NCBI GenBank assembly: GCA_016858145.1
Contig: JAEHOE010000148.1
Coordinates: forward strand, 243,210-307,209
Origin: Edaphochlamys debaryana
Lineage: Eukaryota > Chlorophyta > Chlorophyceae > Chlamydomonadales
Length of the DNA stretch: 64,000 nt
Reading direction: 5' to 3'
Both the position numbers and the translations under genes were made by a program. The first letter of the stretch is position 1; each line of letters opens with the position of its first letter. The notes beneath the pieces are model-generated. The model made no database searches. It saw only the letters and a program-made list of their open reading frames with translations, and was not told where the DNA came from. Below are positions 21-45,300 of this stretch, piece after piece.

Positions 21-3000
21 TCAGTGCTCGTCGTACACCGCATCGTGGGCGCACACCACCGACAATGACGGCCGCCCCAGCTGCTGCGGCAGCCACACGC
101 ATGCCTCCCGGCACACGCCCCGGCACGCGTCCAGCCTCAACTCGGTCAGGTCGGGCAGCCCCGCCGCCGCCGCCGCCACGCCGCGCGCCGTGATGAGCGG
201 CGCGCGTGACAGCTCCAGGCGCCGGAGGCCGGCGGCGGCGCCAGCCGCCAGCGCCGCGGCGGCGGCGGTGGCGGCGGCGGCAGGCTCCTGGGCGCAGGCC
301 CACGGCGCCGCCGCGGCCGCCGCTAGCGCTGCGGCGCTGGTGGACCGAGGCATAGCGCGGCCCGCACACACGTTGGCTCCATTCGGACTGGAGCCGTTGG
401 TGCCAGGGCCGTGCGTGACGTCGCCAACGTCGCCGTTGGCATGTGAAGTGATGCTAGTGGTGGTGGTGGTGGTGGTGCAGAGGGCGAGGTCGGCGAGGGA
501 GGTCGAGATGGAGCACGTGACGGCGGCCTCGGCCACGTCAGCACACGCGGCGCACGGCGGCACGGGCACGCCGGTGGCGGCGCGGCCGCCGCGCGCCGCC
601 GCCGCCACCGCCGGCGCGCACACGCCCAGCGCCACCTCCGCCCCTGCCTCCGCCTCCGCCTCCGCCACCCCCTCCTCCTCCTCCATCCCTGCGACAGCTC
701 CGTCGCCGGTATCCAGACCGCCAGCGTTCCCACTGGACCCCGCTCCACAGTCGCCGCCAGCGCTGCCGCCGCCGTCGCTGACGCCAGCGCTGACGCCGCC
801 GCCAAGCGACGCCAGGGCCTCGTCTGTGAGGTGCGGCGCCCCCGCCAGCGCCAGCTCCCGCAGCGCCGGCGCCGCCGCCAGCAGCCGCCGCAGCGCTGCC
901 GCCGTCAGGCCCTGGCAGCCCGCCAGGTCCAGACAGGTGAGGGCGGGGAGCGGGGCGCACCTGCGGGGAGGGGGGCAAAGGGCGGGGGGGGGGGCGGGGG
1001 CGAAGGTACATGAGCCAGAGGGGGCACCCAGATGGTCGGGGCCGGGTCTCCAGTACGACAGTGAGCGCTGCTGAGGCAGGGGCATGAGCAGGAGCGCTGA
1101 TGAGGCAAGGGCCAAGCGGCACGAGGCGGCAAGATGCGGGTTGGGCCACAAGCGGGCAGTGGTGGAGGGTCACGCGGCAGCGGGGGCTTTCGGGTGGTCC
1201 GCGCTCCAGGGAACAAGCAGCACGAGGGGTTCAGGCCCGCCCGACCCACCTGCCGTACGCCTGCTCCGGCCAGCCCTCGCAGCCGCCCAGCCGCAGCGAC
1301 GCCAGCTGCGGCGGCGGCGGCCACCAGGCCTCCTCCTCCGAACCCCCGCCGTCGCCGGCACCTCCGTCGCCGTCGGCGCCGCCAGTGTGGCTGTGGCGCT
1401 GGCGGAACGACGGCCCGCCGCCGCCGTTGGCGAAACCGTTGGCGGCGACGGCGCCGCTGTCGGTGCTACAGCCGCTGCGCGTGCCGTCGGTGGCGGTGCC
1501 GCTGACGCTGACGCTGGCGGTGCTGCCGCCGCCGCCGCCGACGCTCGCCTCATCGTCGCTGTCCGAGCCGCCGCCGCCGCCGCCGCCGTCGCTGCCGTCG
1601 GCGCCGCGGATGCGGTGGTAGTGACTATGGCCCTGGTGGTGGTGGTGGTGGTGGTGCGCGTGGTGATGCCCGATGGGCAACGGCGCTATCTCATCCCCCT
1701 CCTCCTCCTTCCCCTCTACCCCGTCCCCGTGCTCCGGCCCCGCCGCCGCCAGCTCCGCCGCCGCTGCCTCCGCCGCCGCCGAGCCCGGCTCCGGCGGCGG
1801 CAGGCAGCCGCCGGCGTCCATCCGCAGTGCCGTCAGGGCCGTGTGACCCGCCACCGCCGCCCACGCGCCCTCGCCCTCCTCCAACGTCAGCGCCCGCAGG
1901 CCCGGCAACCACGCCGCCAGCGGCGCGCAGCCCTCCTCCCACGACTCCAGACTCAGCCGCGTCACGGCCGTCAGCGCCAGAGGCAACACCCCCGCCGCCG
2001 CCACCGCCACCGATAACCCCAATCCCTCGCTGCCGCCCGCCTGCTCCGCATCCGCATTCGCATCCCCAGCCGAAACCACATCCACGCCAGCGCACAGGGC
2101 GGCTGCCGCTCCACCGCCGCCCTCCGCCATTACCGTGTGTCCGGTTGCGGGTCCACGCTGCGGCGACACGCGGGCCGTCTGCGCCGACAAAACCACGAGC
2201 GCCGGGCACTCCGCCAGCCCCGCCACCACCTCATCCCCCAGCGCCATCTCCAGGTGCAGCCGCCGCAGCGCCGTGAGGCCGGGCAGGGGCGCGAAGGCGA
2301 GCGCGGCGCGGTGGCCGCTGCCCCACAGGGCCAGGCGCGTGAGGCCCGTGAGGGCGTTCAGGGAGGCGAAGCCCGCGGTACTGACGGTTGCGTCAGAGAG
2401 CTCTAAGGAGCGGAGGGGCGGGCCCGCCGGGAAGCCGCGCGTCTGGAAAAGAGGGAAGGGGGAGGGTAGCAAGCGGGAGCGGAGGTGAGGAGTAGGAAAG
2501 GAGCGGACGGTAGCGTCAGAGAGCTCCAGGGAGCGGAGCGGGGAAGCCGCGCGTCTGGATGGGTGGGGGGACGGCGGGGGCAGAGGGTTCGCGAGGTGGG
2601 GATGAAGGTGGTTCGAAAGTAGAGGCAGGGAGCGGTGGGGAGCAGAAGGCCGTGCGGATGTGGTGCTGCTTCGGGTGGTCCACGCACAGCCCAACACGCT
2701 CCCGAAGCCCCCGAACCTCGCCCCGCCTCCTCCTTTCCCTTGTTACCAGCCCCTGCCCGACTTCGGACTTTACCTGCCGCAATCCCCTCCCCATCCCCCT
2801 CCCCATCCCCCTCCCCATCCCCCTCTTCCTGTCCCGCACCTGTAGCCTCAGGTGGTCCACGCACAGCCCAACACGCACCCCAGGACCTCGCCCTGGCCCC
2901 TCCCGTCCCTTGTGATCACCCTCTATCCCCCTCGGACCTCCCCTCCCTTTCCACCGCCACACCCGTCCCGCACCTGTAGCCTCAGGTGGTCCACGCACAG

Positions 3001-4386
3001 GCTCTCCAGCTGCCCCAGGCGGCCCAGGTGCGAGAGGGACTCACACGTCAGCGCGTGCCGCAGGCCCCGCACCGACAGAGCGCGCAGGCCCGGGCCCAGC
3101 GAGTCGCACAGGCCGCACAGCTGGAGGGCGGGGGTTGGGGAGGGCAGACGGAGACGTGGGAGGCTGAGGGCAGGAGGAGAGATGGATGGGGCGCCACGAG
3201 GTTGGCCTTTCGACGAGCGCAGCCGCGCACCATCCCGCGGCTCTCGTCCAGGCCCCGCATGCCGCCTATCCGGTCCCCACCCGCACGCAGGCGGCAACCC
3301 GCAGGCCGCTCCCGCCCCCGCTCCCGCTCCCACCTGCGGCCCCGATATGGGCAGGCGCGTGAGGTGCAGCTCCTTGAGGCCGGTGAACGCGCACTCCAGC
3401 TCCTGGGGGGGAAAGGGGGCGACGGACGGGGGTTTCAGGGGTGCAGCCAGGTCCAGATTGCCCCAAACCAAGCTGCCCTCAACCTTTGCCCACATTCATA
3501 TGAGCCTGACAGCTCACCGCCTTCAACAAGCTTCCCATCACCAACCCATTACGCCGTGAGCACGGCCACCCCCCGCCCCAACACGGCCACCTCCCCCCTG
3601 CTCGCCTGCAGGCACCGGCCCAGGTCCGAGCACTCGGCGTGCCGGCCCTTGTACCCGTGCTGACACCGGATCTCCAGCCGCTCCAGCCCCGGGCACGCCA
3701 GCCGCAGCGTCTGTAGGGCCGACAGCAGGCCGTCCCTGCCACTCAGCCGCACGCCCCGAACGCGCCGGCCCAGTCGGCCGCTCTGCTGCCGAAGGGCGCT
3801 GAGCAGGCGGTGGCCGCAGTCGGCGTTGCGGGCGTTGAAGTCCAGGTCGATGGTGGGGGGCAGGTGGGAGAGGGGCGGCGGGGGCTCCGAGAGGAGGGCC
3901 GTGGCGCGGAGGCGGGGCAGGCGGCAGGCCGAGGCGCAGGCCGCCTGGGCGCGGGAGCAGGTGACCCGGAGGGCCTTGGCGTCCTGGGGAGGGGAAGGGA
4001 GGAGGGGGCACATGGAGGCAAGGGGAGATGAGGATGAGAGGGGAGCAGCAGGAAGGTGCCGACTCCTGGACTCAAGGGACGCAATCCCCGTGCGAGGGCT
4101 CTGATGAGTCCAGCCAGCCGTGTGGAGGCCCTGCGCGCAGCCCCGACCGCAGCATTGGCCCACCCCCGCCCCAGGCTGTGCACAGGACCGTGCCGCTTGC
4201 TGAGCCTCCCCTCTAAGTCGGGGATGAGCTTAAGGGCCTGAGCCGCTGGACAGGACCTCGCGAGCGCACACGCACCTCGGTGGAGAGTCGGCCGAAGAGG
4301 GCGTGCAAGAACGGCTCCGGCAGCGACACGAAGCGCGCCGGCTCCACGGGCGCCGGGGCCACAGCTCCCGAGACGTCAGGAGCCAT
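21..4386 (-). CDS. Leucine-rich-repeat protein with F-box-like N-terminus
   Basis: Six exons join in phase on the minus strand: 4386-4276, 3983-3591, 3402-3334, 3120-2974, 2442-1250 and 960-21, giving about 950 residues. The ATG at 4386 opens a short exon whose SLPEPFLHALFGRLSTE resembles the start of an F-box (LPxxLLxxIFxxL); this is suggestive only. Later exons carry irregular leucine-rich repeats, such as LTCLDLAGCQGLT, LRELALAGAPHLTDEAL and LRRLELSRAPLI, of the cysteine-containing type seen in F-box/LRR and RNI-like proteins. Exon 5 also holds a His-rich run (about 1630-1680) and Gly/Ser/Glu-rich stretches that interrupt the repeats. A role as a substrate receptor of an SCF ubiquitin ligase is inference. 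The end of exon 2 is the least certain boundary: GT at 3590 keeps the frame, but a GC donor slightly upstream would as well. The gene diverges from the OXA-like gene. Confidence 0.8.
2387..3001 (-). repeat. Tandem copies of splice-junction segments in the LRR gene
   Basis: Two junction duplications lie here. The 3' edge of exon 4 with its donor (2974-3001) recurs at 2836-2866 and, more diverged, at 2665-2692. The 5' edge of exon 5 with its acceptor (2390-2447) recurs at 2512-2560. The extra copies lie within the intron between exons 4 and 5 and are not needed for the open frame. Confidence 0.75.
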
Positions 4387-4818
4387 CCTAGTCGCAGTAT
4401 GTGGTGTTTACAGGCAGCAGCAGAGCCCCGTGCGGTCGCACTCGGCGGCGTTGTGCAGCTTCGCGCCTCCGCGTCAAGCCTCCGCCATGCAGTTTGGTTT
4501 GGCTTTGCGATACTAAGGTAAAGATACGGCCACAACGGGGTGCAGGGCCGCTTTCGCGTGAGCGCGCCGCATCGGGAGGGCAAAGTCAAAGGCTGAACGG
4601 GCTGGCTGGAGAGACGTCAATTGTGTGATGCGGGTCTTTAATTGAGGCGCGGAGTATGTATTTCGGCGGGGCTTGCGAGCCTGTGTCCGTTGCAGTGATG
4701 CGGAGCCCGCTGGGCTCATGTCGAGACAGCTCGACGCTGCAGCTGCCGTTTGCCGTCAATGTCTATGCTACGGTCATAAATGAACTAGATTGCGCTACGT
4801 GCCTGTAAACGTGAGACG
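4387..4818. promoter_or_regulatory. Intergenic region between divergent genes
   Basis: This 432-bp gap separates the start codons of the LRR gene (minus) and the OXA-like gene (plus), so it must contain both 5' UTRs and probably both promoters. It is visibly less GC-rich than the flanking exons. I see no clear TATA box and no gene. Confidence 0.45.
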
Positions 4819-7800
4819 ATGCGGCGGGCGCTTGGATGGCTGCTGCCGGGGCACGCTGCTGCAGCGGCGAGTCGTGGGAGCGCCCTAGAGCTACTCTGGT
4901 AGGTCTGAAAAACAAAGGGCGACCTGCGTCGCTCTCACGCCTGGCCATCACCAGCCCAACCATCAACCCTCGCCCGCGCTCGCGGGGACTTGGCGAAGAT
5001 ATCGGACGGCAGCTAAAGTGACGGTGCCGCAGCGCAGAGGGGCCCGGGGGCCCGTTCTGGTCTTGGGCGTGCCCCTCCCCATCCATCCGCTCCATCCAGC
5101 AGGCCTCCGGCAACCCCCGCAAACCCCACAACTTACCTTGCCCGAATCTCCCCCGCCCGCATTCACCCCTCCCGTAGTCATGACGCGGCTCCAGCTTGGC
5201 TTCTGGCAGCCAGGGACGCAGCTGTGGGCGCCGGAAGCCCGCCCGTGCTCGGCGGCTTCCGACGCTTCGGCTCCTTGCCCAGCTCCCAAGCAGCAGCAGG
5301 CGCCCCTCCGGCCTCAGCACAGAGCTCCTTCCCCCTTGACCAGGGCCTTGGATCCAGCACGGAATTGGGATCCAGCGTAGAATCTGGATTCGCTGGATTG
5401 GGAGGCGCTCTCCAAGGCCCCAGCTCTAGCTCGTCGTTCCTAGCTAGCGTGGGCCCCACCCCAGGCGGAGCCCCCTCCATCATCGACGAGGCGGCTCGCT
5501 CCGTGTCAGCTGCCTCGACCTCCCTCGATGCTTCCCCCCTCTCCTCATCGCACGCCGTAACGCCATCACAACCCCTGCCCGTGTGGACGGACTGCCCTCC
5601 CGCATTGGGAGGCGGGGGCGGAGGGGGGCCCGGGGAGGCCCTGGAGTCGGCCATTGCCGCCTGCTCGGCCGCTGAGTCATCCCCGCTGGGCTCCTTACTC
5701 ATGTCCAGCGCGCAGCACGTGGCCAACTGGTACGAGCTCGTCCACTCTACGACAGGTGCGCCCTGCCTGCCGTGCAGCGGTTGGGTTGGGCTTAGTCACG
5801 GCGGGGCGGAGTCGCTGGACTGCGCCCGATTGCCCGTACTAGTGCCGCCCGCTACAGCCTGCCGCGGCGCGTCGTCTGCCTGTCGAGGCCGCATACTGCA
5901 TACACCCCCCTGCAAGCCCGACCACCTCTGTGTCTCTATCCTTTTGCTACCGCCGCCCCTTACCCCAGCCCCACTTATCCCACGCCCCCCCACCTCCCGC
6001 CCCCCTCCCTCCTCCCCCTGCCCCCCCCCCAGGCCTCCCCTGGGTGGCCTCCATCCCCCTCACCACCTTTGCGCTGCGCCTGGCCTTGCTGCCCATATCC
6101 ATGCGCCAGGCGCGGATCATACGCACCAACTTCTCGCTATACAAGGTGGGGCGCACGGGTTCTGGCTTTCGGGCTTTCGCGCCTTCGGGCGTAACGATCC
6201 CATGGGCAGGCCGGCTTACACGAGCAGCCCCTAGCGGCCCCTACCTCAGGCCCCTACTCAGGGCCTTTTAGTCATCCTCACATCTAGGTTTTGGGTGCTG
6301 GTCGTGATGGCCTGCAGGAGCGCCACTGGCTGGACACCAAAAGCTCCCTCACACACGAACCCCCCTATCGTCCTAGACATTGCTTTCATTGCCCCCTGGA
6401 ACGCGAGCGGTCAGGCATGACTAATATGTGCGCCCGCAGAACACGTGGACCCCCTAATCGTCCTATCTCGCCCTTGCAGGAGGCGCTTGCGCTGACGGAC
6501 GAGCAGGAGCGTCAGCAGCGGGAGGCTCGGGAAGCCCTGTCGGCGGCCGACGACACGGCAGCGCGCATGCGGCCGTCCGCGTCGGGCCCGGCTGGGCCTG
6601 GCTCGCCCTCGCCCTCCCCCGTCTTCCCCAGCCGCAACAGCGGCGGGGGCGGGGGCGGGAGCGCTGCGGGTGCCGGCAGCAGCGCTGCCGGGGCCACGCC
6701 CTCGGCCTCTGCGAGCCTGTCCACCTCCGCAACCGCGGGCCCAGCGTCGGACCAGGCCCAGGCCCAGGCCCAGGCCCAGGAGGCCCAGGCCCAGGAGGAG
6801 CAGCAGCGGGACCTGGCTGCGCGGCTGGCCCGGTCTCAGGCGGTGCTGGCCAACTTCAATATGCTGAGGGCCAAGCTGGACGTGCCGCACCCCGTGTGGA
6901 TCCTGGTCAACCCCCTGGTGCAGGTGGACGGGTCGTGGCTCGTGGGTGGGCGGTGGGCGGGCGCTGAGTGGGCAACGAAGCGTGGCTTGGCCACGGCTGT
7001 GTGTGGCCCAGGGCTGCCCACGTGCTCGCTACGGAAAGGTCCAGGGGTTGGTGCATGCGCCCCACTCCCGCGCTGCCCCCATCCCGCGCTCCCCTGCCCT
7101 GCCCCGCCGCAGATCCCCGTGTTCGTGCTAGTCAGCACGTCCCTGGGCATGATGTGCAGGTGGGCAAACATCGCTAACTTCTGTGGGCCGCCCGCGGGCG
7201 TCGGGTCCAGAAGGGGACGCGGATGCGATCGATGCGTGTCCGTTTCAGCAAGCATGGTCCATTGTTCCGCCGCTTCAGCTCCTGCCCTGCTTTTGCCTGC
7301 CCTGTATAGGGCTCCCTGGCCCGGGCTGGCTACGGAGGGCGCGCTGTGGTTCCAGGACCTCACGCTGCCGGCAGTGCTGCTGGGACCGGGTACGTTCGGG
7401 GGGTGGGTGCGGGGAGTGGGTGGGTGGGGCCCATTGCGGCGAAGGGGTCTGTGGCGCCAGGGCCAGGGCCAGGGCCAGGGTGTTCCGGGTCGGAGCTGAG
7501 CAGGGCTGACGGCCCTCAGCCTCAAGCCTCTAGGGTCCGTGGAGCTGTGGGGTTGCACCGGTATGGGGCCCTCTGTGGCGACGGGGTCTGCTGTGCCTGT
7601 CGGATCGGTATGTGTCCGCCTGTCCCGGCATGGGGATGGCTACGGGGCGCGGGGGGCTGACGTGCGCACGTGTTGTGGAGAGCGGCCGGGGTCCCCAGAC
7701 CCCCCAGTCAGGCGCGTCCCGTTCGCCCCGCTCTGGGTCTGCTGCGTGGTGCGCTGTGATGTCGTGGCCTGTCCCGGCATGGGGGTTTGTGCGGTGAGGC

Positions 7801-10800
7801 GTGTGTGTGGTGAGCGGTGAGCAGTGCCCCAGTCGCGTCCGGGTCACCCCGATTACGGTTAGGGGCGTGGTCCGGGTCAGTCATGGCGGCTCTCGTGTAG
7901 ATGAAGCGTAGGAGCCCAAGGGGAAGGCCGGGGCAAGTGGCCGGCGGGGCCTTTCCCCTGTGCTCCTACGCTTGATCTACACGAGCTGTCATGACGGACC
8001 CGACCCGCATTGCCCCTGTTTACAGCTACGGTACGGACGGGACCAGCCGACGCGCCTGGGCCCAGAGTACGGCAACAGTGCTCCACCCCCTGCACCCCAC
8101 TCTGCCTCCCTCCTCCCCACACACCGCACCCTCCCGGACCCTCCCACCCCCTCCCCAACCCTCCCAAACGCGCATCGGGCTCGCTGCCCGCCGCCGCGAA
8201 CTTCAAGACGCCCGGGGAAAAAAACCTCCCAAACCCTCCCGGACCCTCCCAAAACCCTCCTGCCCACAGGCGGCCTCACCGACTTGGAGTCCGCGGCGCT
8301 GCCCATGGGCCCCGTGGGCCTGGCCCTGCCGCTGCTGGTATACGCCCTCACCATGACGTCACTGCGACTGGGCGTGGGCGCGTCGGGGATGGCGGCGCGG
8401 GCGGGCGCCGCCACCAGCCTGGGGGCGCCCGGGGGAGCCACTGCGAAAGCCGGCGGCGTGGAGGACACGGCACTGGGTGAGTGCGCGTGAGCAAGCCTAC
8501 AGCTATGGTTATGTTTCAACAAGCGGCGGCGGAGGCGGAGGCGTGGGCATGTTTTAGCCAGCACGGGGGCGCCCAGTTGCGAGGCTGTAGGTTGTGGGGT
8601 GTGTGGCGTGGGGGGGTGGCCAGCCTGGAGGGCCGACTGCTGGGGCGCAGGGTGGTGTGAGGACACGGCAGTGGGTGGTGGGCGGAGGCGGGGGCATCCT
8701 CCCGTCGTGCTGCCGCTGCTTGGCAGTTTTGTGGAGACTGTTGGGGTGTGCTACCGTACTTCGCGCCCACGCCAGCGCAGGCGGGGGCATGCCGTGGGCA
8801 CCCCTGCTGGCTGCTCACAGGTGGTCGCGGCCAGTTTCTATATCGCTCCCCCCGCAGGCGCCTTCCTCCGCGGCCTGCCCCCGCTGCTGTACGCGCTGAC
8901 CACGCTTAACCTGGTGTTCAAGGTGCAGATGGCGCAGGGCGTGCTGGTGCACTGGCTGGGCTCGGCGGGCTTCACGCTAGGGCTGCAGGTGGGCGTGGGG
9001 GGGCTGGGGAGTGGGGGGGGGGTGAGAGGGCTGGGGCTGCAGGTGGGGGGAGGGGGGAGGTGGGGTGGTGGGTATTTTTTCGAGCGGGAAACGAAACGAT
9101 ACGATGGGGTGGTGGGAGGAAGAAGTGTGTGGGGGGGGGGGGCGCTGGGGCTGAGGGGCTGGCGGGGCTTCGCGCTGGGGCTGCAGGTGGGGGGAGGGCT
9201 GGGATGGTGGTGGGAGTGGGGTCCAGTGCGGCTGGCCGGGCCTAGGGGCTGGCGGGCGTTCAGGGTGAGGCTGCAGGTGAGGCCTAGCGTTGCACAGGTG
9301 CCTGGAGGCCCCCACACCCTTCACTCCACCTGAGCCCATCCCTACCCATTCCACCCACCCTACCGACCTCCGCAGATGGCCCTGCGCGTCCCCGCCCTGC
9401 GCGAGCTCCTCAAGCTCAACCGCGTCACGGGCACCCCCTCCCCCCCCTCCTCAAGCTCCTCCTCCTCCTCCTCCTCCCTCACCGCTTCCTCCTCCGCCTC
9501 CTCGGCCTCCCCTTCCTCCGCCTCCACCTCGCTTCGCTTCGCCGAGCTGCCCTCCGACCTTGTCGACCGCGTGGCGACCACGAGCGACCCCAACATATTA
9601 GTCATCATGGGCGCGCAGCTGTCGGCGCGGCAGCAGTGAGTCATGCATCTTGAGCGCGCCTTCGGACGCCGCCATGCTTGGGCCGGGGGCTCGCGGTGTG
9701 TTGACGACGGGCCTGTTCACATGGGACCGCGGACCAGGGTTGGTTCGGGGTCTGGCTCGTGTTGCCGTGCACTGCTGGCAGTGAAGCTGACCCGAACCCT
9801 ACCCAGGGGGGGGGGGCTGGCTGCATCTGGTCCGCCGCGGTTCGACCCGAACCAGACTTCAAACCAGACCCAAACCAGGCCCATGTAAACAAACCCAAAG
9901 AGCCCCCGGCTTGGACCCCCGGCACGACGGGCGCTCAGTTCTGCACGGGGGCCTCGCTGTTGCTGCCGCTCGAGGGGCCTGAGCCATTCTTGCTTGGCTC
10001 TCGCATCGGGTCCCCCCGAGGTGTTCAGGCCTCGCCTCCCGCCTCCCTTCCCCCCACCCGCCCACCCCGCAGCTACCCCGCGGCGCTCCACTGCCTGCGC
10101 AAGGCGGTGCTCCTGCGCCCCGGCCACACGCGCGCGCACTACTCCATGGGCCAGGTGTACGCGCTGACCAGTGAGTGCAGTGCCAGGGGGGGTGGGGGGT
10201 CGCGGGGTGGAGGATGAGGGCGGAAAGAGGAGATTGTGTGCGGTGTGCTGCGTGACGCTGCATGAGGTGGGCCACAAGACTCCATTACGCCGGGAAGGGC
10301 GTGTGTGGAAGGGACGTGTGAAGGCCTGCATCTCTTTTCAAGGCGGGCCCAGCCCACGAAACTGACCAGCTTTTAGCACTGTACCATGGCCCCACCTCCC
10401 CGTCCCCCGCCCTTCCTCCTTCCCCTTCATACCCCGCCTCCCCCACCAGACGCGTGGCCCGACGCCGAGGTCTCCTACAAGGCCGCCGCCGAGGTGGCGG
10501 AGGAGGGGCCCGAGCGGGGCCAGGCGCTGTACTGCGTGGGTACGGCACTGCACGCACAGGTGTGTGCTTGGTTGGGAGTTGGGAGTTGGGGGTTGCGGGC
10601 GCGGAGGGTTAGGCGCTCCTGGCTGCATTGCGACGCCAGTGCTGCTTTCGCTTTCCGTCTTTGCCCTGGCCTTGCCTTCCATACACTGAGGGATTGATGG
10701 GCCCTCGCCCTCCTCTCCTTTCATCTGTCCCTTACTCCCTTCCCCTATCTTAGCACAAAAACGTTTTACCCATCCCACATATGGCTCTCTTGCACCCCCT

Positions 10801-11136
10801 TCCCCCACTTCCCAGGGCAAGCTCAGCGAGGCAGTGGAGGCGTACCGCGCCTCGGACGAGCAGTGGCCGGGGCAGGTGGTGGTGCCGTACGCCATGGCGA
10901 ATGCATTAGTCATGGCAGGCCGTACGGCAGAGGCGGCGGAGGCGGTGGCCACCGCGGAGGAGCGGGATGCGGCCACGCCGGGGCGGCCGTTCGCGGCGGG
11001 TCTGGCGCGGCTGAAGGCGGGGCTTGTGCGTGGGGAGGGGAAGGATGGGACAGGGAGCAGCGCGGGGAGTGGGGATGGGAAAGAGGTGGGCGGGGAGAAG
11101 GCCGCGGAGGTGGTTGGTAAGGAGAAGCAGGCGTGA
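4819..11136 (+). CDS. Oxa1/YidC/Alb3-family insertase with C-terminal TPRs (OXA2-like)
   Basis: Twelve exons join in phase: 4819-4898, 5214-5755, 6033-6145, 6480-6923, 7113-7159, 7310-7389, 8270-8476, 8858-8988, 9376-9635, 10073-10170, 10450-10559 and 10816-11136, giving about 810 residues. The basic, Ala-rich start (MRRALGWLLPGHAAAAA) looks like an organelle-targeting peptide. The insertase core is recognisable from GLPWVASIPLTTFALR and MRQARIIRTN (about 208-240), IPVFVLVSTSLGMMC (394-408), then ALWFQDLTLP and two further hydrophobic stretches (about 440-545). A Q/A-rich charged linker (246-393, including QAQAQAQAQEAQAQ) enlarges the loop after the first core helix. The C-terminus carries TPR-like helices, such as YPAALHCLRKAVLLRP (635 onward). 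Plant mitochondrial OXA2 proteins combine the same two domains and assist insertion of cytochrome oxidase subunits. The exon 2 acceptor (CCAG at 5213) is the weakest junction. Confidence 0.85.
7873..8003 (+). other. Long imperfect intronic hairpin
   Basis: Within the intron between 7389 and 8270, the left arm (7873 to about 7930) is complementary to the right arm (about 7943-8003). The core stretch at 7892-7915 pairs with 7962-7985 with one mismatch in 24, and pairing continues on both sides with a small internal gap. The loop is only about 10 nt. Such a fold-back could be a miRNA/siRNA precursor or a MITE-like inverted repeat. The structure is read directly from the sequence; the function is not known. 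Confidence 0.7.
8966..9281 (+). repeat. Tandem copies of an exon 3' edge plus donor (OXA gene)
   Basis: The end of the exon closing at 8988 (GGGCTGCAG|GT context) recurs downstream in the intron at about 9029-9050, 9168-9190 and 9252-9280, each time followed by a GTGGG- or GTGAG-type donor. Only the first fits the frame needed by the next exon. Confidence 0.7.
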
Positions 11137-11696
11137 GGGTCCAAGGCTGGACGATGATCACGGAAAGGCACAGGGCATCAGCAAGGCATGGGGCGGAATG
11201 CGGGCCAGAGTCGGAGCAGATAAGGACGGCGACAGAGTCTGTAGTGCGCCAGGGTAAGGGGTAGATACTAGTGGACGACTGCATTGAGTGGTTTGCAGGT
11301 GTTGAGAGGGACCGCAGCTGTACCTGCTGTACCGAGGCTGTACTAGGCGACGGTCGGGGCCTGGCTTGGGGATTCGGGCATAGCCCCCGCGCTGGCTTGG
11401 GGATTCGCAGGATGGTCGGGGGAAGGGCTGACACGACTGGCCGGCTCACGCCTTGGCAGAAGAGTGCGATGAATAGAGCTCCCGAAGATTCAGTGGACAG
11501 GGTGGCCGTGGGCACAGGCAGGCGTCGTTTGCACGATCAAACGCAGCGAGCGGTAAACGCCACTGTCGCTCGCTCTTTACGCCCCTCACAATACCGCCCG
11601 CTCTGCAACACACAGCGATACTTCCACGCAACAACAGCACTCTAGGATCCGAGCCTTGCTTCGCGACCCAGCGCGAGCTGCAAACCACCGGCCAAA
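11137..11696. other. Intergenic region, no gene seen
   Basis: This is the 3' UTR of the OXA-like gene followed by the 5' flank of the next gene, both on the plus strand. An imperfect repeat (GGCTTGGGGATTCG) occurs twice near 11360-11410. No convincing ORF, RNA gene or TGTAA polyadenylation signal was found. Confidence 0.5.
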
Positions 11697-29939: not shown

Positions 29940-29984
29940 TGCGTAGAGTCCGGCGACGCTGGAACCTGGAACCTGCATACGGTA

Positions 29985-30525
29985 CGGATTGCTTCAATGG
30001 AAGGATGGTGTAGTTCCAAAGTACGGAGAGTCTCCGCCAGGGCCAGGGATGCGCCGCCGCCGCCCGCCGCCAGCGCCGCCGCCGCCACCGGCGCTGCGGT
30101 GCGTGGTTGCACCGCGCAAGGAACCCGCGGTGTTTGAAGGAGGGCGCAGCGGTGGCGAGGCGAGCGCCCGCGGCTCCCAAGGGCCCGGCACATACAGCTG
30201 GTGGCCCCACCGCCCGCTCTGCCGTACGTACCCCACTCGGGCCGCGGAGGGCCCGTGGCCGGGGCCGCCGAGTGCGCTGAAGCGGGCAATCGATGGCTGG
30301 GCCTGGTGGCCTGGTGCCCCAGCGTCACGCACCCCCACTGACCAAGCGCTTCGCTTCGTTGTTTTCTTCTACACCCCCACTGACCAAGCGCTTCGCTTCG
30401 TTGTTTTCTTCTACACCCCCACTGACCAAGCGCTTCGCTTCGTTGTTTTCTTCTACACCCCCACTGACGTACGTACGTAGCACGTCAGCGCCGCGTCCCT
30501 GGCGGCGCTTGCAAGTTGCAACCCG
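29985..30525 (-). pseudogene. Frameshifted fragment copied from the cNMP-binding gene
   Basis: This stretch aligns with 39775-40175 of the cyclic-nucleotide-binding gene, in the same orientation. Shared blocks include CCGTGGCCGGGG(C/T)(C/T)GCCGAG, GTGCGCTGAAGCGGG, GCCAGGGATGCG and GCGTCCCTGGCGGCGCTTG. The minus-strand translation matches the gene's FSALGSPGHG and SLRGGAT segments, while ASLALAE falls in a different frame, so it cannot encode that protein. A 42-bp tandem repeat interrupts the aligned region. It is about 9 kb from its likely source. Confidence 0.7.
30331..30467 (+). repeat. 42-bp tandem repeat, three copies plus partial
   Basis: Units at 30331-30372, 30373-30414 and 30415-30456 are identical as read, followed by 11 bases of a fourth. 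The 42-bp length is a multiple of three, so the tract is open and would encode TPTDQALRFVVFFY repeats. Nothing suggests it is translated. A related sequence in inverse orientation lies at about 48588-48620. Confidence 0.9.
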
Positions 30526-31968: not shown

Positions 31969-34900
31969 ATGACTCGTAAACCGCAGTACGCTATGATCGC
32001 CGCGCTTGCGGTGGCGATCGCCCTCAGCGTCGCCAGTGCCCTCCCGGCGGAGCGGCGCGAGTTGCCCGAATATGCAGGCTGCAGCAAGGACCTCGGCTTG
32101 TCTCTCAACCGTCTGACATCCTGGAAGGTGCGGGATGAGTCCCGAGGGACTTGCTCGAGGGATGCGTGCCGCCGCTGAGCATGCGTGCATTCACGAATGC
32201 TTGCGACATGCGCCCGTGCCCTCCGCCTTGAACCCCGCAGACCGGCAATTGGTAAGCCTCGGAGCAAACAAGCTGCAATACTACGGTGCCGAGCGTCTCG
32301 ACACGTCAGCCGTCGCTCGAGCGAGCTGTCTGGAGCGGCGGGGTGTAACAACAACAACAACCGTCCCTAGATCTTCTCCGCGTCCCCCCTAACAATCCTT
32401 TTCACCCACGTGTTACCATTGCCTGCAGGACCGCATCTGGGTCGCTCGGCTCTCTCGAGTATGACCCCTTCTTCAAGCTGGCCGCCGCCATCGAGGGCCA
32501 GGGTGAGCGTGGGTGAGGAGGCCCGCCGCCCCTGCCGCTGCCCCTGGGTGCGATGGGACGCGCGCGGCGTGGACCGTCCCCCCTTTTGTGTTGGTGACAA
32601 CGCAGCGCAATGACTTATATGACTAGCTGCGCTGCAGACCTGTCACCGCCTCTGTGCAGAAGTGAGAGCCCAAGCGAGATCTGTAACCCTGAGCTTCACA
32701 GCTAATGGCACTCCCTCGCATGTACCGGTATCGCTCGATCGGCTGACCGCCCCTCTCCCGCAGATCCCCTCTCGCTCCTGATCGTCAACTACCAGGACCC
32801 CGCCGCCCCCTTCATCCAGCACCGAATCCTGGTGTCCGGATCTGCCGGCGAGGATGACACGTACGGCGACCCCAACAGGTGCGAGGGGGTCTCATCCTGC
32901 ATGATGAGCGGTGCGAGTGAGGCACGCTCGCGCTCTGGCACACGCTGCTCCCCCCCGCCGACGCTGCCGTGACTGCCCCCACTCTGTCCTCACGCTGCCA
33001 CCACGCTGCCCCGACGCTGCCCCCCTCGCCGCCCTTGCCCACCCAGCGTCACCGTCCACAACGGCTACGCCGCGCTGGTGATGGACGGGGTGGACGAGTT
33101 CACGGACGGCTGGCTGCGCATCTACCACATGGCCTCGGGTGGGTGCGTGCGATGCGGTTGATGCACGGGGCCTTCTAGGGGGTTTTAGGGTTTTAGGGTC
33201 TGAAGGGCCGCTTGATGCCGTACCATCCATCAAGTGAGTGTGTGTGTCTGTGCTGCTGAGCGCCGCGTGCCAGGCGGCGACAGTGACTTGTATCTTCCGC
33301 ACAAGCATGCATGGGGCGCATGCAGCAGCTCGCTGGTTGAGATAGACGCGCACTGAACGGCGCGCGGCGGCCCCTCGCTCTCCCCACGTGCGTCTCACCG
33401 CATAAGGCACCGTGAAGCGCTCGTGCGTGACTGTCGTCGTATCACGATGCCGCACCTGCCCCAGGCTCCAAGGTCGCGGAGCAGCGCCTGACTGGCTGCA
33501 ATATGCCCGGGTCCGTGGCGTGGGCGCGCGACGGCAGCCGCCTGGTCATCGCGTGCGAGGGCGAGCCCACCTCCCAGGCAAGGCCGCGCGAGGGGTTGGG
33601 GCTGCAAGCATGCACAGGAGGGCAGACCCTTTGGGCGGCACGCGTAGCCTGCTGGAGATACAGTACCGGAAGCCGGGACTGCAGGCAGGGGCTGGTCGGG
33701 CGCGCGCCGGCGGCGGCTCACGGGGCTCGGTTAGTTCATGTCGACCCCCAGCCAGTCCGGGTGGTGGGTGCCTCCCTCGCGCATGACACGCTGGCACCGA
33801 ACCCAACCGCCCGCTGGTCCCTCGCTTGATCCCTCGCGCATGCAGGACGATGAGGAGACCGGCAGCGACCCCAACCAGGGGGAGAACCGCAACGGTGAGG
33901 GGCTGCGTCCGCGAAACCGGCTTGACCGCCCTAGCTCGCTCGTGGCCATCCGCCCTCCCACCCACCCTACATCCTAGCAATTGCCTCTCCATAATACCCC
34001 TTGCCTGCTCCCCGCCAAACCCCAGGCATGATTGCCATCGTGACCACCCGGTGGAACTCCTTCACAGCTAAGGACGCGGACTGCCCCTCCGTGTCCTTCG
34101 CCTTCACCATCAAGATCCTCGACTTCCAGGCGGTACGTCTGCCGTACGGCTGTACGTCTTGACCTGCGCGGCTAGCGGGAAGGGTCCAGGCAACCCCTGC
34201 TTTTCCACGCTGCATGCAGCGAAACGCCCGCCTTGCTGGCCATGCCGCGTCCCGCCCCACTCTGCACCCCACCCTTCCCCCAACCCAACCGCCCCCTCTC
34301 CTATCCCCTACCTTCCCCTCCCTTCCTACCCCCTTGCAGTACTTCGACGGTCTGTCAGCGGCCCAGTACGACAGGCTGCTGTCCAAGGGCCTCCGCATTG
34401 ACCCGCGCCTCACGCAGAAGACCGCAGGTGTGTGCTGGGGGGGCATCGCTGTCGTCCTTGCGTGTCTGACTCTGTATCGGGTGTCTGAGTCTGTATCAGG
34501 GCATCGCTGGGTTGGTGTCGCACGCGGGCGGATGCATGGACGAAGCGGGCATCCCGACCCAAGGCTACCGCAGTACCGCTCCCAGAGGTCATGCCGTACA
34601 TTGCACTGTCGACCACGTTCCTTGAGGCTTGTGCACCCCCTCGCTCGCTCGGCCCTGCTGCCTGCCTGCAGCCAAGGACATTGAGCCCGAGACCGTGGCA
34701 CTGCCCGCGGACCCCAGCAACCTGCGCGCCTTCGTCACGCTGCAGGTGCGTAGGGGAGCGTGGGCTGGGGGCTAGCTTTCTTGTGGGGAGGTAGGAGGCC
34801 CTGTCTATCTCACCCACTGATCAGCCTGTGCGTTACCCCATTCCTCGATCTGAAGCCCCTTACCTCGCCAAAACTCTTACCGCAGGAGAACAACGCCGTC

Positions 34901-37900
34901 GCGCACATCGACCTGACGCCGGGCATGGAGAGCATCAAGGCCATTTGGCCCCTGGGCGTCAAGAGCTGGGCCAAGGCCAAGATTGACGTCAGCGACAAGT
35001 GAGATGCTGCATCTGAACTTGAATCTGAGTCATCTGGAGTTCAGTGCATGAGCCTTGGGTCCTGTCACGCGTTGTATCCCAGCCCTGCTCCGCATCTCCT
35101 CCTCCCCCCCCACCTGGCCGCATCTATCCATCCCGCCCACCAGGGACGGTGTGAACCTGCGCACCCACGAGTCCCTCGTGTCCTGGCTGCAGCCCGACAC
35201 GGTCGTACACGCAGGTGCGGTGCCGTACACGTGCGGCGCAATCTATCTGGATCCTGTTTCCCGCCAAACTCTGAAGGTTTAGGGGATGCCAGCCACTCGC
35301 AACGCAGCTCATCCCACCCCCCCCTCAACCCCCCTCATCCCCCCTCTGCTCCCTCTCTCCCTCTCTCCCATCTCCCCCTTCCCTCCCTCCCTCTTCTATT
35401 AGTCATTAACAAGTTCCACTTCCTGTTCCTGGCCGCTCCGTCTCCCCCATCCCTCTCCTCCCATCACCCCCTCATCCCCTCTCTGGCCCCTCTCCCCCTC
35501 TCCCCTGCCCCCTCTCCTCCCTCTTCTATTTGTCATCAATACGTTCCACTACCTGTTCCTGGCCGCTCCGTCTCCCCCATCCCTCTCCTCCCATCACCCC
35601 CTCATCCCCTCTCTGGCCCCTCTCCCCCTCTCCCCTCCCCCCTCTCCTCCCTCTGCTGTTGCTAGTCATCAACAAGTTCCACTACCTGTTCCTGGCCAGC
35701 GAGGGCGACAGCAAGAGCGAGGTGCTCCGCGTCAAGGACCTGGCGGGCGGCCTGGACCCAGAGGCCTTCGACCTGCCCGCAGACCTGGAGGTGCGCGTGC
35801 GGGCGGGGAGTAATGGGGGGGCACGCACGTGGGGCTGAACGAGCGTGCGTGCATTCATGCCGTACTAGCTGTGTATGCCGTACAGCTGTGGCTGCTGCTT
35901 GCTTTTGGGGGCGGCTGGTTCGCCGTGCAAGGTGTTGAGCGTCGTGGGGAAGGGAAGGGTTGGAAGGCTGAAGTGGGGCGCGCCTCGTTGGGGTGGCATG
36001 GTCGACCACGGGGTTGGTTGATCCATGCCGTACCTGCCGTACCGTGCCGTACAGGACACGGGGCTGGGCCGCCTCCACGTGGACCCCCTGTTCGGCATCA
36101 AGGGCGGCTACAACGCCAGCAAGGCCTGGAACCAGCAGGGGCCGTACGAGAAGCTGTACGCGTACGGCGGCCGCGGCTGGGCCATCATGAACGCAAAGAC
36201 CGGTGAGTCAGGTTATATTGCCGTACGGTTAGGTACGACACTTCAAGAAACCGGGTGACGGGTGATGAAGGCGCTGGCCCCGGGGCGTCGCCCCGATGGC
36301 TGGCTGGAGAGTCCGGGTTGGTCACCAGGAGCGAGGTCTCTCGCTCGGAGGAGTACCAGGCACTCCTTCTTACAGCTCTCCGAACAGGGGCCTGCCTCGC
36401 CCACGCTCAGGCCGGGTGTCTCTTGCCCCCTGTTGGGCGCCTCTACAGCTGCCCCTGACCTCACGTGCCGCACCCCGCCCGCCCGCACGCCGCCCCCTTC
36501 TCGCATGGGCCCTGTGGCCTGCAGGCAAGATGGTGTACGAGAGTGGCGGCGAGGTGGAGACGCTGCTGTCCGAGCTGGCCGAGACCAAGGATTGCTTCAA
36601 CTGCGACCGGTGCGTGGGGCGGGCAGTGCGGGCGGGATCGATGGGACTCGTGTCCAGAGCCAAGGATCGGTACCTGGCCGAGTACCATACCTGGCAAAAC
36701 TCGACTTTATAGACTCTTGAACTAGAGTGCGGGGGGTCGGGGCCTCTGCCTGACACTCGAGTGAGGGGCATGGAGGGGCAGGAGAGGGGGACAGGAGCGA
36801 TCCGGGGGTGGGAGGGTAGGAAAAGGGTAGGCAGGGGAAGGCAGGCGGGCTCAGAATGGGGAGGGGCTGAATGAGCGGAGCGTGATCGCAACAGGCGAGG
36901 CGGCGAGCGAGCCGAGCGACCCGCGACCCCCGCCCGCTGCACCCCGCGCCTTTCCCCTCCTCGTCCCCCACCCCACCCCACCCCCACGCACCCCCCCACC
37001 CTCCACCCCCCAGCGACAAGAACGAGGCCGACGTCCGCTCCGACGACTCGGGCCCCGAGTGCGAGACCGTCGAGGTCTTCAGCGTCGGTGACAGGTGAGA
37101 GGCCAGCGTGGCCGGGCCTCCATGTGAATGTGGGGGCATGATAGATGCGAACAGGGCAGGTCTGGTGTGGGCCGCGGACAGTTTCGCTCCTTGGTGGCGT
37201 GCAGGCCGCCAAGGCCCGAAGGGGGATGTGTCGGACTGGCGTGCCAGCCGAAATGGCCTACTTGTTCCGTCCACCGCCCCGCAAGGGTCGTTGAGCGAGG
37301 GCGGACCGGTGCCGTCACACTACCGGTACTCGCACTCTCACCCTCCGTCCCACTTCTTATCTTGCATACCTCCTCCCTTCCGCCTCCCCCCCTCTCATTC
37401 ATCCTCCCAGGCACTACGCCGCTATCGGGATGGAGCGCCAGGGGTGAGGCGGGCGGGCTGGGGGGCCGGGGCAGCATGCAGGGAGTGGAGGGAGCGCGGA
37501 CCGCACCAGCCCGGGCCTCAGGGCTACGGCCCAGCCTCGGAGAGAGACAGAATGCACTCCAACGCGTCTTCCTTCCTTGCTTGTCAGTAGCCTCCTGGAA
37601 GCTTGTCAATGCTTGTGTGACAGGAGGACCGTTCCCCAGTCTGATCTGCCTTGTCCTCGCTTGCCCCACCCCATCACCCGTCGTCAGCGGCATGTTCGTC
37701 TACGACGTCTCTAACCCGCGCAAGCCCACGGCCGCCACCTTTGTCTACAACCGCGACTACAGCCCCGCCGCCACCGACGCCGCCGCCATGGGCGACCTCA
37801 GCACGGAGGCGGTGAGCGGGGGTCGGCGGGGGCAGCGCGAGCGATTCTGCAGGACAATGTTTTTATATTACAAGGGAGCAGAGGAAGGAAGAAGGAAAGG

Positions 37901-38296
37901 AGAAAGGAGCAGCGCGGAGATGCGGCGGGGGGCAGAAGGAAGAGTTGCAAGGGAGCCGCGTGCTGCAGGGGCCACGTACGGTCCCTACTCGAGCCCCCCT
38001 GTCCGACCCCGTGCTGAGGCGGACGGAGGCCGCCGCCGGCTTGCGCGAGCTCGCTATCAGGTTGAGAGTGGAAGCTGCGTTGCGAGTTGCATCCCTGCTT
38101 CGCGTCTCACGCCTCGGCCACCGCCCCCTCTCCCCGTCCCCCTCCCCCGGCGCTCCCCCCATTCCCACCCTCGGGACCACCACGCCCTCAGGTCAAGTTC
38201 GTGCCCGCCTCCGCCTCCGCCTCGGGCCGGCCGCTGCTGCTGGTGGCCAACGAGGTGTCCGCCACCCTGGCAACCTGGGAGCTGGGCGAGTGCTAG
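31969..38296 (+). CDS. Secreted choice-of-anchor-I / msp130-like protein
   Basis: Nineteen exons join in phase: 31969-32127, 32241-32251, 32429-32502, 32764-32878, 33047-33138, 33465-33577, 33846-33894, 34026-34132, 34340-34427, 34672-34745, 34886-34998, 35144-35214, 35666-35790, 36055-36202, 36525-36609, 37014-37094, 37411-37443, 37688-37811 and 38192-38296, giving 588 residues. The N-terminus (MTRKPQYAMIAALAVAIAL) is a clear signal peptide. Motifs follow the order of the bacterial choice-of-anchor-I family and echinoderm msp130: DGSRLVIACEGEP, ENNAVAHIDLTPG, GRGWAIMNAKTGKMVYE, DVRSDDSGPECETVEVF, YAAIGMERQGGMFVYD and RPLLLVANEVSATLATWEL. The fold is probably a secreted beta-propeller; msp130 is linked to biomineralisation in animals, but the algal role is unknown. 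Exon 2 is an 11-nt micro-exon needed to restore phase. The intron after 33577 uses a GC donor. Confidence 0.88.
33183..33198 (+). repeat. Two TTTTAGGG telomere-type units in an intron
   Basis: Two adjacent TTTTAGGG octamers (the Chlamydomonas-type telomere unit) lie in the intron between 33138 and 33465. At 16 bp this may be chance. Confidence 0.4.
35391..35700 (+). repeat. Three tandem copies of an acceptor plus exon start (msp130-like gene)
   Basis: The segment TTCTATTAGTCATTAACAAG and the following exon-like sequence encoding FHxLFLA occur with acceptor positions 35402, 35532 and 35665. In the middle copy the AG has become TG, which removes the splice acceptor. The third copy is the functional exon. 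Confidence 0.85.
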
Positions 38297-42300: not shown

Positions 42301-45300
42301 TCCCGATCGGCGGCGCCGCCGTAACCCGCGTCTTGGCCGCCATGCTGATCGGCCGGTGTCGCCGCCGCCGCAGGGTCTGGGCGTGGGGGCGGCGGCGGCG
42401 GCAGGTGTGGCGGCGGCGGCTGTCCCCTGGCGGAGTTCAGTGCTGACGCCGACGGCGTCGGCGGCACCGCCAGGGAGGGGTAGCCCGCGTGGCCCCACCG
42501 CTGGGAGGCTCGGGCCATGCTGAACCCCCCGACAGAGGCCAGGCCCCGAGCGGCGGCGACGGCGCCGCCGCGGGTCGGGCTCCCGGAGTCTCCCGGAGCA
42601 GCCGCCGTGGATGACGTCGCCGGTTGGGTGCCGTAAGGGCTGACGTCGGCGGCGGTGGAGGCCGGGGCGTTGGCCGAAGAGGTGGCGTCGGGCGCAGCAG
42701 ATGCAGCGGCGGTGGCGGCGGCGGCGGTGGCGGCGGGCAGGACTGGGGCGGGGCGGAGGAACTTGTAGCCCCGGCCGAAAGGCAGCGCAGCCACTGTCGT
42801 GGGGGCCGGCGGCGCCCCTGCCAGGCCCAAGCCGTCGCCGTCACCGGTGCCGCCGCCCCGCGCCTCCTCGCCCTCGTCTCCGCCCTCCGCGCCGCTGCCC
42901 TCATCCTCTGCCTCGCCTTCCTCCGCTTCATTTCCCTCCCCATCCTCCGCCTCCTCCTCCTCGCCGTCCTCCTCGCCGGTTTCCGCCCCGGACTCGCTCC
43001 CGCCTCCGCCGCCACCGCCGCCGCCGCTAGCGCCGTTCCGGCGGCGGAAGGGGTCCGATTTTGTCGGCATGGACTTGAGCCGTCGCGCTGCCGATGCCGC
43101 CGCCGGGCTCGCCTCGATCCTGCCCAATGGCTTCCTCACGTAAGCCTCGGCGGCTGCCTGTACGACACCCCACGGCGTGACGGTTGGGTCCGAGTCCAGA
43201 TCGAGGACTGCGGGGTGGTCCGGCATTGAAACCTGAATCCAGTTGGCGGTTGGTGAGAGCGGGCCGTCCGGGCTGTTGCCGTACGGGGCGTCGTTGTCGT
43301 GTGGCCGGTCGGGGGATTGCACGAAGGCGGAGGGGGATGCGGGGTGGGTTTCGTGCCGGTGTGCGTAGCGGTTGCGGGAGGGGCTGGTGGGCGAGGGGGC
43401 GGTGAGGGAGGCGATGGAGGGGGGCGGGGGCGGGGGGTCGGGTACGTGGCGTGGCGGGCTGCCGTTGCGAGGGGGCGAGGGCGCCAGGGCTTGGGCTGAG
43501 GCGCGGAGGTCAGCCGCGAGGGTGGGCGCGTTGAGCCTCTGGGGGTACCAGGAAACAGCAAACTGGTTCACAAGTGGGGCCATGCGGGGTACGAAACGTT
43601 CCTCGTGTTTGACAAACACTTGACAAGAAGAACAGAAACGGTAAGACGCACAGTCCCCGGTATCCATTTGCATCCCCAGCACAGCCTATCTATGTCAGCC
43701 AGCGGTGTCGCTTCGCTCTCTGCCCCGTCCGCTCACCCGCAGGCTGTGTCCCCTCAACAGCCGGTTCCTGCGCGCCACCTCCCCGCGCTCCCGGGCCGCG
43801 GCCTTCACCAGCAGCAGCATCTTGGACTCGGCCAGCACGCGCAGCTCCTGGGGGCAGGAGGGGACGGGGGGGAGGGGTGAATCGTGTGTGTATGCGCGGT
43901 CGTGTGGGGTGCCGTACACGCAGCAGCATCTTGGACTCGGCTAGCCTTAGCACGCGCAGCTCCTGGGGAGGCGAGGACCAGGGGGGTTGCTACGGCGCAG
44001 AGCCCAGAGCCCGCACCACTGCCCCCCGCATCAGGGCCCACAGCTCTCGCCCTGGCCCCGCAGCCCTCCAGTCTGCCAGCCGACCATGTTATCCCGCCCG
44101 TCCCGCTCCAGCCCCGCAGTACGCACCCTATCTGCTTACCCTTCCCCCCATGTTATCCCGCTCCACCCCACATACACACCTCGAGCTGCGCCGGCGGGCA
44201 GAGGCGCAGGAAGTGCGCCCTGCGCAGGCGGTAGAGCTGCACGTCCGTGGCGGTGCGGATGGAGGCGGTGCGGCGCCGCATGTTGCCAAACACGCTCTGG
44301 GGGCGGAGGAAAGGGGGGGGAAGGGAGGAAGGGAGGAAGAGCTAAGCGTTGGAAAAGCAACACGTGTGTGGTTGAAAAGGGGCGCAGAGGCCGGTAACTT
44401 GTGCGCAGCAGAGGCCAGAGGTAAGCGCCCCCGAGGCACTCACCATGTCGCCGATCAGGTGGCCCGCTTGTACGGCAGCAACCTGCGTACGGCATACGAC
44501 GTGCGACAGTCAGGTGAACGGATGCCACCTTGGTTGAGCGCCGCTACCACCATGCCCTCGAGCGCGCTGCTTGCTTTCCAATGCCAACCTGTTCTCCTTC
44601 CATTTCATCCCGAAATTCCCCCCTCCGGCTCCTGCCCCCGCCCTTGCCTGCGTGGTTCGCCGCGGGTCGGTCTCCGGGGGGCGATTGGTAGAGGGGTGCC
44701 AGCGGGGATCAATCACGATGTGGCACCTAGGGGACGCAGGGTCAAAGAAGTCGTATAAGGCATGAATAAGTCACAGCATTCAATCCCGCCACATACACGT
44801 GAACACCACCACCGCCGCCACCGCCACAAACAACGCCCCTGCAACCACCTCGGCCCGGCCCCACCTGCCCGACGCCACGGCCCACAGGCACTCCGCCGCG
44901 TCCCCCTGGCGACACAGCACCTCCCGGGGCCGGAGGGACTGCAGGGAAGGGTGTGCGGGCGTGGGAGAGGCACGCGAATAACTATCTGGGCGTCTCGTGC
45001 GATTTCAACCCCACACGCTCTGCTTGCTATGTGCCGCGTCCCCCACTACCCAGCGCAATCCGCCCGCACTCATTCGCCCACATGTGACAACCGCTTCGGG
45101 CCCACCCAGGCCCACACGTGTCGTACCACGGGGAAGAACACGGGCGCCAGGCGCTCCACCACCCGGCGGGGCATGCCCCCAATCACGGGGAGGCTCTGGA
45201 GGAAGTCCACCTGGGGTCAGGGGCAGAGGGAGATAGGAAACATGTCTGGGGTGGAGGTAGAGATAATGGCAGCGGAAAGGGATGCGAGATGCAGACTCTA

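Follow-up and report, generated by a model that had tools for sequence, protein, structure and literature searches.

Recurrent tandem duplication of splice junctions in the green alga Edaphochlamys debaryana and its possible part in intron growth

Why should the edge of an exon, its splice site and the adjoining intron sequence lie head to tail in more than one copy within a single intron? The question is raised by the terminal 64,000 bp (positions 243210-307209 of 307209; hereafter the window) of contig JAEHOE010000148.1 (C148) from Edaphochlamys debaryana, a chlamydomonadalean green alga with a 141.9-Mb assembly in 502 contigs. A first-pass annotation of this DNA had named 14 junctions with such extra tandem copies, and base-level alignment recovered them at all 14. 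Each named junction has one to four extra copies, here called decoys; our set holds 25, and Tandem Repeats Finder (TRF) adds one more in an array at 23244-23524. The copies had been described as decaying by substitution, which is borne out by 57 differences in 845 aligned exon-part sites. Tandem duplication of splice junctions is confirmed as real and recurrent in the window. Its best explanation, to which we assign a probability of about 0.7, is tandem duplication associated with the sequence tracts beside splice sites and filtered by selection.

Arrays were listed with TRF and ungapped self-comparison, and events were called by an automatic scan that weighted matches by local composition and information, with cut-offs of at least 30 bits and a period of at least 50 bp. 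The scan found 21 window events of at least 30 bits, and one round on block-shuffled window sequence gave 0 hits. It matched 12 of the 14 named junctions; those at 24757 and 28310 were seen by directed alignment only. At four hits (9030, 12683, 27485 and 35386) the best pair was labelled intron in both copies, and at a fifth (43811) exon in both, the decoy there having been modelled as an exon; for these five the junction was taken from the alignment. With them, window events of period at least 50 bp comprised 12 at junctions (five via alignment, not label), one in an intron interior and three in predicted intergenic DNA (13879, 54376 and 54670). Duplications implanted in the window at 12% divergence were detected with a power of 0.98 at junctions and 0.96 in interiors. 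A stricter test, in which an exon edge had to match its own intron far above other introns, was passed in 6 of 180 tests in the window and 2 of 573 in 20 random stretches, and by none of the mid-exon segments (0/148 and 0/482). It proved too harsh for short GC-rich edges, and the composition-weighted scan and alignments were used instead.

Exons and introns were modelled with a purpose-written gene-finding hidden Markov model, trained on window positions 1-56230 and 20 random 10-kb stretches, which yielded 45 genes and 394 introns. Donors in the models follow the consensus CAG/GTGAG or similar, and a C-rich tract precedes the acceptors. The window models comprise LRR-type, OXA/TPR-type, XRN, choice-of-anchor I (msp130-like) and cNMP-binding genes and one more. 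They place the 14 junctions in five genes and not in the six first proposed, the donor at 12664 (previously given to a 'small protein') being taken into the OXA/TPR-type model at 5701-13448, although that join is unproven. 'LRR-type' and 'OXA' are names from the first-pass annotation: a 447-aa part of the former had no match in Pfam, and the Pfam matches of the OXA/TPR-type gene were to TPR only. Homologs of the XRN gene carry XRN domains. An Rfam scan of the window found no family at gathering score.

We take the coding copies to be the true ones because an independent prediction matched a published protein and because an XRN homolog aligns in single copy. The prediction came from L032, a random locus outside the training set, where the predicted 929-aa part of a Ca-ATPase matched P0208, a published E. 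debaryana protein, with 100% identity; the published annotation drew on RNA-seq (as described in part of PMC8226300). Against the Gonium protein P0001, the exon edges of the XRN model at 19389, 22630, 23517 and 24857 each align once; this alignment stops before the later XRN junctions, which more distant homologs back less clearly. The first-pass statement that only one copy per junction fits the reading frame partly reflects geometry, since no copy but the outermost runs on into the rest of the exon.

An unbiased sample consisted of one 10-kb stretch (bases 300001-310000) from each of the 24 contigs C1-C24, with 372 introns in all. A second set of six loci (L003-L008; 46 introns) was retrieved via similarity to the XRN donor array and is therefore biased. 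In all, 24 junctions are known, of which the window contributes 14, and the unbiased sample and L003-L008 contribute 5 each. Their units have a median length of 117 bp (interquartile range 102-133). The unbiased junction events were an acceptor (period 103) and a donor (period 90) in L010, and two donors (periods 164 and 116) and an acceptor (period 118) in L032. Interior hits of period at least 50 bp in this sample were L013 8414 (period 116), L018 2029 (period 84) and L028 7828 (period 58), and there were three intergenic events, in L015, L028 and L033. The L028 'interior' hit belongs to a 28-bp minisatellite, and a window hit at 40571 is an 18-bp minisatellite. Base-level alignment covered the 14 window junctions and the two in L010; the 8 others (L032, L005-L007) rest on copy labels and automatic alignment.

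Is the junction itself preferred? The first-pass annotation had described the duplications as centred on splice boundaries, as opposed to lying anywhere in introns. The simplest competing account is pure geometry: tandem duplication would strike uniformly along a gene, with preference for neither tract nor junction; with a unit of about half the length of an intron, around half of all intron-related events would span a junction, and such cases would draw notice since exon sequence contrasts with C/T-rich or G-rich introns. For a 117-bp unit touching an intron, geometry predicts a junction share of 0.56 across the unbiased loci and of 0.49 across the window. The unbiased sample had 5 of 8 events at junctions against 4.05 expected (P = 0.37), or 5 of 7 against 3.74 once the 28-bp minisatellite hit is removed (P = 0.28). 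Relative to interior and intergenic events, the rate of junction events per opportunity did not differ in random stretches (p = 0.55), and detection power is alike at junctions and in interiors. Geometry also directs short repeats to interiors and long ones to junctions, as observed: interior hits outnumbered junction hits 7 to 1 at periods of 30-49 bp, with 4 interior and 17 junction hits at periods of at least 50 bp.

Against pure geometry stand figures that include the window, which was picked for the pattern. There, 12 of 13 events were at junctions versus 6.0 expected (P = 0.0006, or P = 0.005 when copies at junctions are assumed to remain detectable 1.5 times longer), and window and unbiased sample pooled gave 17 of 21 (P = 0.0017). 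With minisatellites set aside these became 12 of 12 (P = 0.0001) and 17 of 19 (P = 0.0003), and the per-opportunity comparison for window and random stretches together gave p = 0.008. Since the window was singled out for the pattern, the unbiased figure is the sole fair test, and it is small. Only in the window does junction enrichment strongly exceed what geometry predicts, and the claim of centring on splice boundaries is not supported as stated. Geometry alone leaves unexplained both the purity of the tracts at affected junctions and the shortness of the exon parts, described below, and although it is a serious contender we put it at less than even odds.

Introns of at least 200 bp carry marked tracts at both ends, where G-runs occupy 28% of the 50 bases next to the donor and C-runs occupy 32% of the 50 bases next to the acceptor, versus 11% and 8% mid-intron. 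At affected donors the tract was purer than at other donors of the same loci (purine 0.80 v 0.62, p = 6 × 10−5), and at affected acceptors weakly so (pyrimidine 0.79 v 0.72, p = 0.02). Over all loci, a set that includes the window and the retrieved loci, tract content correlated with the number of events (Spearman 0.46, p = 0.007). Units lie mostly on the intron side, with an exon share of 0.32 versus 0.46 under random placement (P = 0.0017); exon-part lengths were set automatically and overshoot at 8988 and 23517, an error that runs against the reported shortness. Microhomology at the seams could not be called, the copies being too diverged there. A separate extreme of the donor-side G tract is a GGGGGA repeat of about 180 bp (24079-24257) right behind an XRN donor.

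Tract-associated duplication under a selective filter would work as follows. Short tandem duplications, with a unit mostly of 100-135 bp, would arise repeatedly in gene bodies, favoured by the G-run tract behind donors and the C-run tract ahead of acceptors. We infer the duplication step itself and its cause at the tract; stalling or slippage there, followed by template switching, could produce it. Duplications internal to an exon would mostly break the protein and be lost. Those straddling a junction would be tolerated, as the old mRNA could still be made from the copy attached to the body of the exon, namely the last acceptor or the first donor. The extra copy would then turn into intron. 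Each event would lengthen the intron by roughly one unit, and the exon edge and splice site left behind in it would drift as neutral intron DNA. No exonic duplication of at least 50 bp was found in the window or in the 24 unbiased stretches.

Several results weigh against this explanation. The window has 14 events in 91 introns and the unbiased sample 5 in 372 (Fisher test, 3 × 10−7), and events are clustered in few loci (P = 0.0016), unlike a uniform process. Outside the window the tract difference is p = 0.03 for donors (n = 6, three of them from loci retrieved by G-rich similarity) and p = 0.86 for acceptors (n = 4), and over the 24 unbiased loci tract content did not correlate with events (Spearman 0.15, p = 0.50). 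The short exon parts fit only if events centre on the tract; otherwise they too count on the opposing side. The gene finder misread three decoys as 45-nt exons (XRN 19155-19199, XRN 19272-19316 and cNMP 43918-43962), and decoys of one array are not independent in the codon test given below. At L030 1635-2082, beside a telomere-side end and outside the unbiased sample, 279 bp (a multiple of three) are tandemly duplicated in frame within a predicted exon. Of the two causes first proposed for the pattern, a mutational mechanism acting at junctions has partial support in the purer G-rich tracts at affected donors, but its acceptor side is weak, and weaker without the window. A selective filter would predict the near-absence of duplications from exons that is seen apart from the L030 case.

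The first-pass suggestion of a route to intron growth was upheld. Affected introns (window, L010 and L032; n = 18) had a median length of 380 bp, falling to 200 bp without the decoy span, whereas unaffected introns of the same loci (n = 113) had a median of 233 bp; the corrected difference was not significant (p = 0.17). The excess length of these otherwise normal introns is explained by the junction-spanning duplications that they carry. In the window 10.6% of intron bases fall within such duplications, and in the unbiased sample 0.66% do. With a mean decoy depth of 5%, the unbiased sample gives a very rough rate of 0.27 events per intron per substitution per site. According to parts of PMC8226300, introns of the Core-Reinhardtinia are conspicuously long (medians 198-343 bp), the driver is likely evolutionarily ancient and the advantage of keeping such length is unknown. 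Tentatively, tract-triggered duplication might act in volvocine algae as a steady ratchet of intron growth, each event adding some 100 bp made up of exon edge, splice site and tract, and each copied tract perhaps favouring the next. It would then be part of the reason why introns are so unusually long in this group, and would leave a standing supply of splice sites for occasional new introns or exons. For C. reinhardtii, PMC10910851 quotes a total of 238 structural variants in eight mutation-accumulation lines, including 125 insertions averaging 263 bp; the excerpted text leaves unstated whether these were tandem.

We compared the exon parts of decoys with those of their true copies in 24 comparisons at 15 junctions, leaving out the 23517 array and the L005-L007 and L032 events. 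Differences at codon positions 1, 2 and 3 numbered 15, 13 and 29 of 283, 279 and 283 sites. The third-position share of 29/57 (51%) is above one third (p = 0.007) and close to the 50% to be expected when the decoy changes freely and the true copy is constrained. Positions 1 and 2 give a decoy divergence of 5%, at which 31.6 of 35 decoy splice dinucleotides should be intact; 32 were. Neither codon positions nor splice dinucleotides gave any sign of selection keeping or removing decoys. Because both the third-position share and dinucleotide retention are at neutral values, the decoys look neutral and appear to evolve like ordinary intron DNA.

If used, decoys are predicted to introduce a stop in 18 of 35 cases, a frameshift in 10 and an open in-frame insertion in 7. 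They could in that case be functional, kept for alternative splicing, for dosage control by nonsense-mediated decay or as cassette mini-exons. Intact decoy sites score almost as well as true ones (acceptors 11.7 v 12.3, donors 8.4 v 9.9), which together with the stops and the three decoys modelled as in-frame 45-nt exons (two XRN, one cNMP) speaks for such a role; in principle, the XRN array could be read as extra 45-nt exons via its cryptic donors. However, dinucleotides are retained only at the neutral rate, the true copy accounts for all the coding constraint seen in the exon parts, and extra XRN exons would duplicate the conserved stretch DADLLLL, which occurs once in the aligned homologs. 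We consider functional decoys unlikely; decoys are probably skipped in mRNA. A process directed by splicing, that is, an RNA- or spliceosome-linked event at the junction (for instance reverse splicing, or repair that draws on partly spliced RNA), would account for exon parts being short on donor and acceptor sides alike. It is improbable, as duplications of similar size occur in intron interiors with no exon edge by eye (L013 8414 and L018 2029) and in predicted intergenic DNA (window 13879, period 133; 54670, period 126), and the copies are head-to-tail genomic intron plus exon, as plain duplication yields. An assembly artefact is scarcely credible, for although tandem arrays are a known weak spot of assembly, 21 of the 24 exon-part comparisons differ (by 3-19%; three are without difference), several alignments contain indels, the cases are spread over several contigs and the assembly was built from PacBio reads with Illumina polishing (as given in part of PMC8226300).

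Introner elements are a route by which intron sequence increases. The XRN unit, one of 24 units and the one tested, did not behave as a member of such a family: in full it matched only its own array. The search, which passes over simple repeats and scores a limited candidate set, gave 13 matches, two of them in that array, and the other 11 cover 43-114 bp at 71-93% identity. Tandem arrays are also known from volvocine satellite DNA (monomers >10 bp, in the part of PMC8226300 that treats repeats), but the single unit searched here is locus-specific, and our units carry a splice junction.

The closest likeness is to the potato RdRp gene, where the 3' part of an intron and the 5' part of the next exon are tandemly duplicated, with acceptor, tract and branch site copied and ten differences between the copies (PMC4974935, in part). 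The algal copies likewise lie head to tail, hold an intron end and an exon start (or an exon end and an intron start) and have diverged by substitution. In potato, a cryptic donor in the copied exon was activated, giving a new intron and exon (same source); that is a single instance, in which a new intron is spliced and an exon has been inserted, whereas in the alga the duplications recur many times, on the donor side too, and the copies appear to become intron. The Rogers (AGGT) model of intron gain by tandem genomic duplication, as outlined in portions of PMC4974935 and, for Drosophila cases, PMC2891723, likewise yields extra splice sites and an unchanged protein. It copies an exonic AGGT to make a new intron, whereas the alga copies an existing junction and an existing intron grows; the algal units, part intron and part exon, fall outside that class, in which the unit is exonic with AGGT. 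Tract-associated junction duplication is a variant of the known tandem-duplication model, new as a route of intron growth instead of single intron gain: among the titles and abstract openings listed in searches of open-licence papers, none described recurrent junction-spanning tandem duplication in that role. The arrays also offer a natural experiment in splice-site choice, with near-equal rival sites of known origin adjacent to one another in one gene.

The XRN gene (15639-30341, all junctions on the plus strand) holds most of the window's duplications. Its four-copy acceptor array (19012-19446; unit 117-123 bp) precedes a true exon starting at 19389, with decoys at -117, -234 and -357; every copy has a cryptic donor (CAC/GTGCGC), and two decoys were modelled as in-frame 45-nt exons. 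Three copies lie at 22394-22670 (true exon 22630; decoys -100 and -209). The array at 23244-23524 has a 67-bp unit, 4.2 copies by TRF, with the true exon at 23517 and decoys at -67, -134 and -201 besides the further one by TRF; the exon makes up only about 8 bp of its automatic match. Single acceptor decoys occur at 24739-24879 (true exon 24857; decoy -99), 25564-25762 (25738; -137), 26830-27032 (26996; -135) and 28305-28500 (28472; -161), the last with a 16-bp minisatellite between the copies. The XRN donor array (27431-27860; unit 116 bp) has its true donor after 27481, decoys at +117 and +233 and a degenerate one at +366 with GT lost.

Elsewhere, the LRR-type gene (minus strand) has an acceptor duplication at 2383-2606, with the true exon starting at 2442 and one decoy acceptor 112 bp upstream in the transcript, and a donor duplication at 2674-3000, with the true donor after 2974, a decoy at 134 bp and a further partial copy near 2674-2703. 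The OXA/TPR-type gene (plus strand) has a donor duplication at 8958-9280 (true donor after 8988; decoys +54, +198 and +288), and the donor duplication with a 97-bp unit that had been placed in the 'small protein' lies at 12644-12864 on the same strand (true donor after 12664; decoys +96 and +193). The choice-of-anchor I (msp130-like) acceptor array, at 35358-35697 on the plus strand, has its true exon at 35666 and decoys at -133 (AG lost) and -263. In the cNMP-binding gene (minus strand, 43811-43970) the true exon starts at 43847, and the decoy 115 bp upstream in the transcript is the one modelled as a 45-nt exon.

No E. debaryana protein was named among the 87 matches of the XRN query, and for the choice-of-anchor gene (31993-38296) the sole E. 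debaryana match named among the 120 listed was a 58% paralogue on contig C4; published models of these two window genes may be missing or broken. In L032, the Ca-ATPase exon coding for SDKTGTLTTNQ (within 3500-4500) is followed, within the next intron, by a decayed second copy of its 3' edge and donor, and two decoys are also seen by eye behind the preceding exon. The L010 gene has internally repeated coding units, fasciclin-like by eye, alongside its two junction duplications. The 28-bp minisatellite of L028 (7757-7963; 7.3 copies) begins at a predicted donor.

The contig end carries a 76-bp satellite, which prompted a check for a subtelomeric hotspot in three loci chosen by position outside the unbiased sample (L029-L031; 29 introns). 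Junction duplications numbered 0 in L029 (just upstream of the window; 14 introns) and 0 in L030 and L031 together (15 introns), which adjoin TTTAGGG arrays. A subtelomeric hotspot is not supported by this small sample; adding it to the unbiased one gives 5 events in 401 introns. Telomere arrays of TTTAGGG lie at the start of C56, at the end of C76 and on C128. The satellite occupies 56238-63998 of the window with about 102 copies; other contigs carry related arrays as well, in some cases close to an end (start of C62, end of C19). Near the window's satellite, in predicted intergenic DNA at 54343-55152, lies a cluster of diverged tandem pairs with periods of 107-557 bp.

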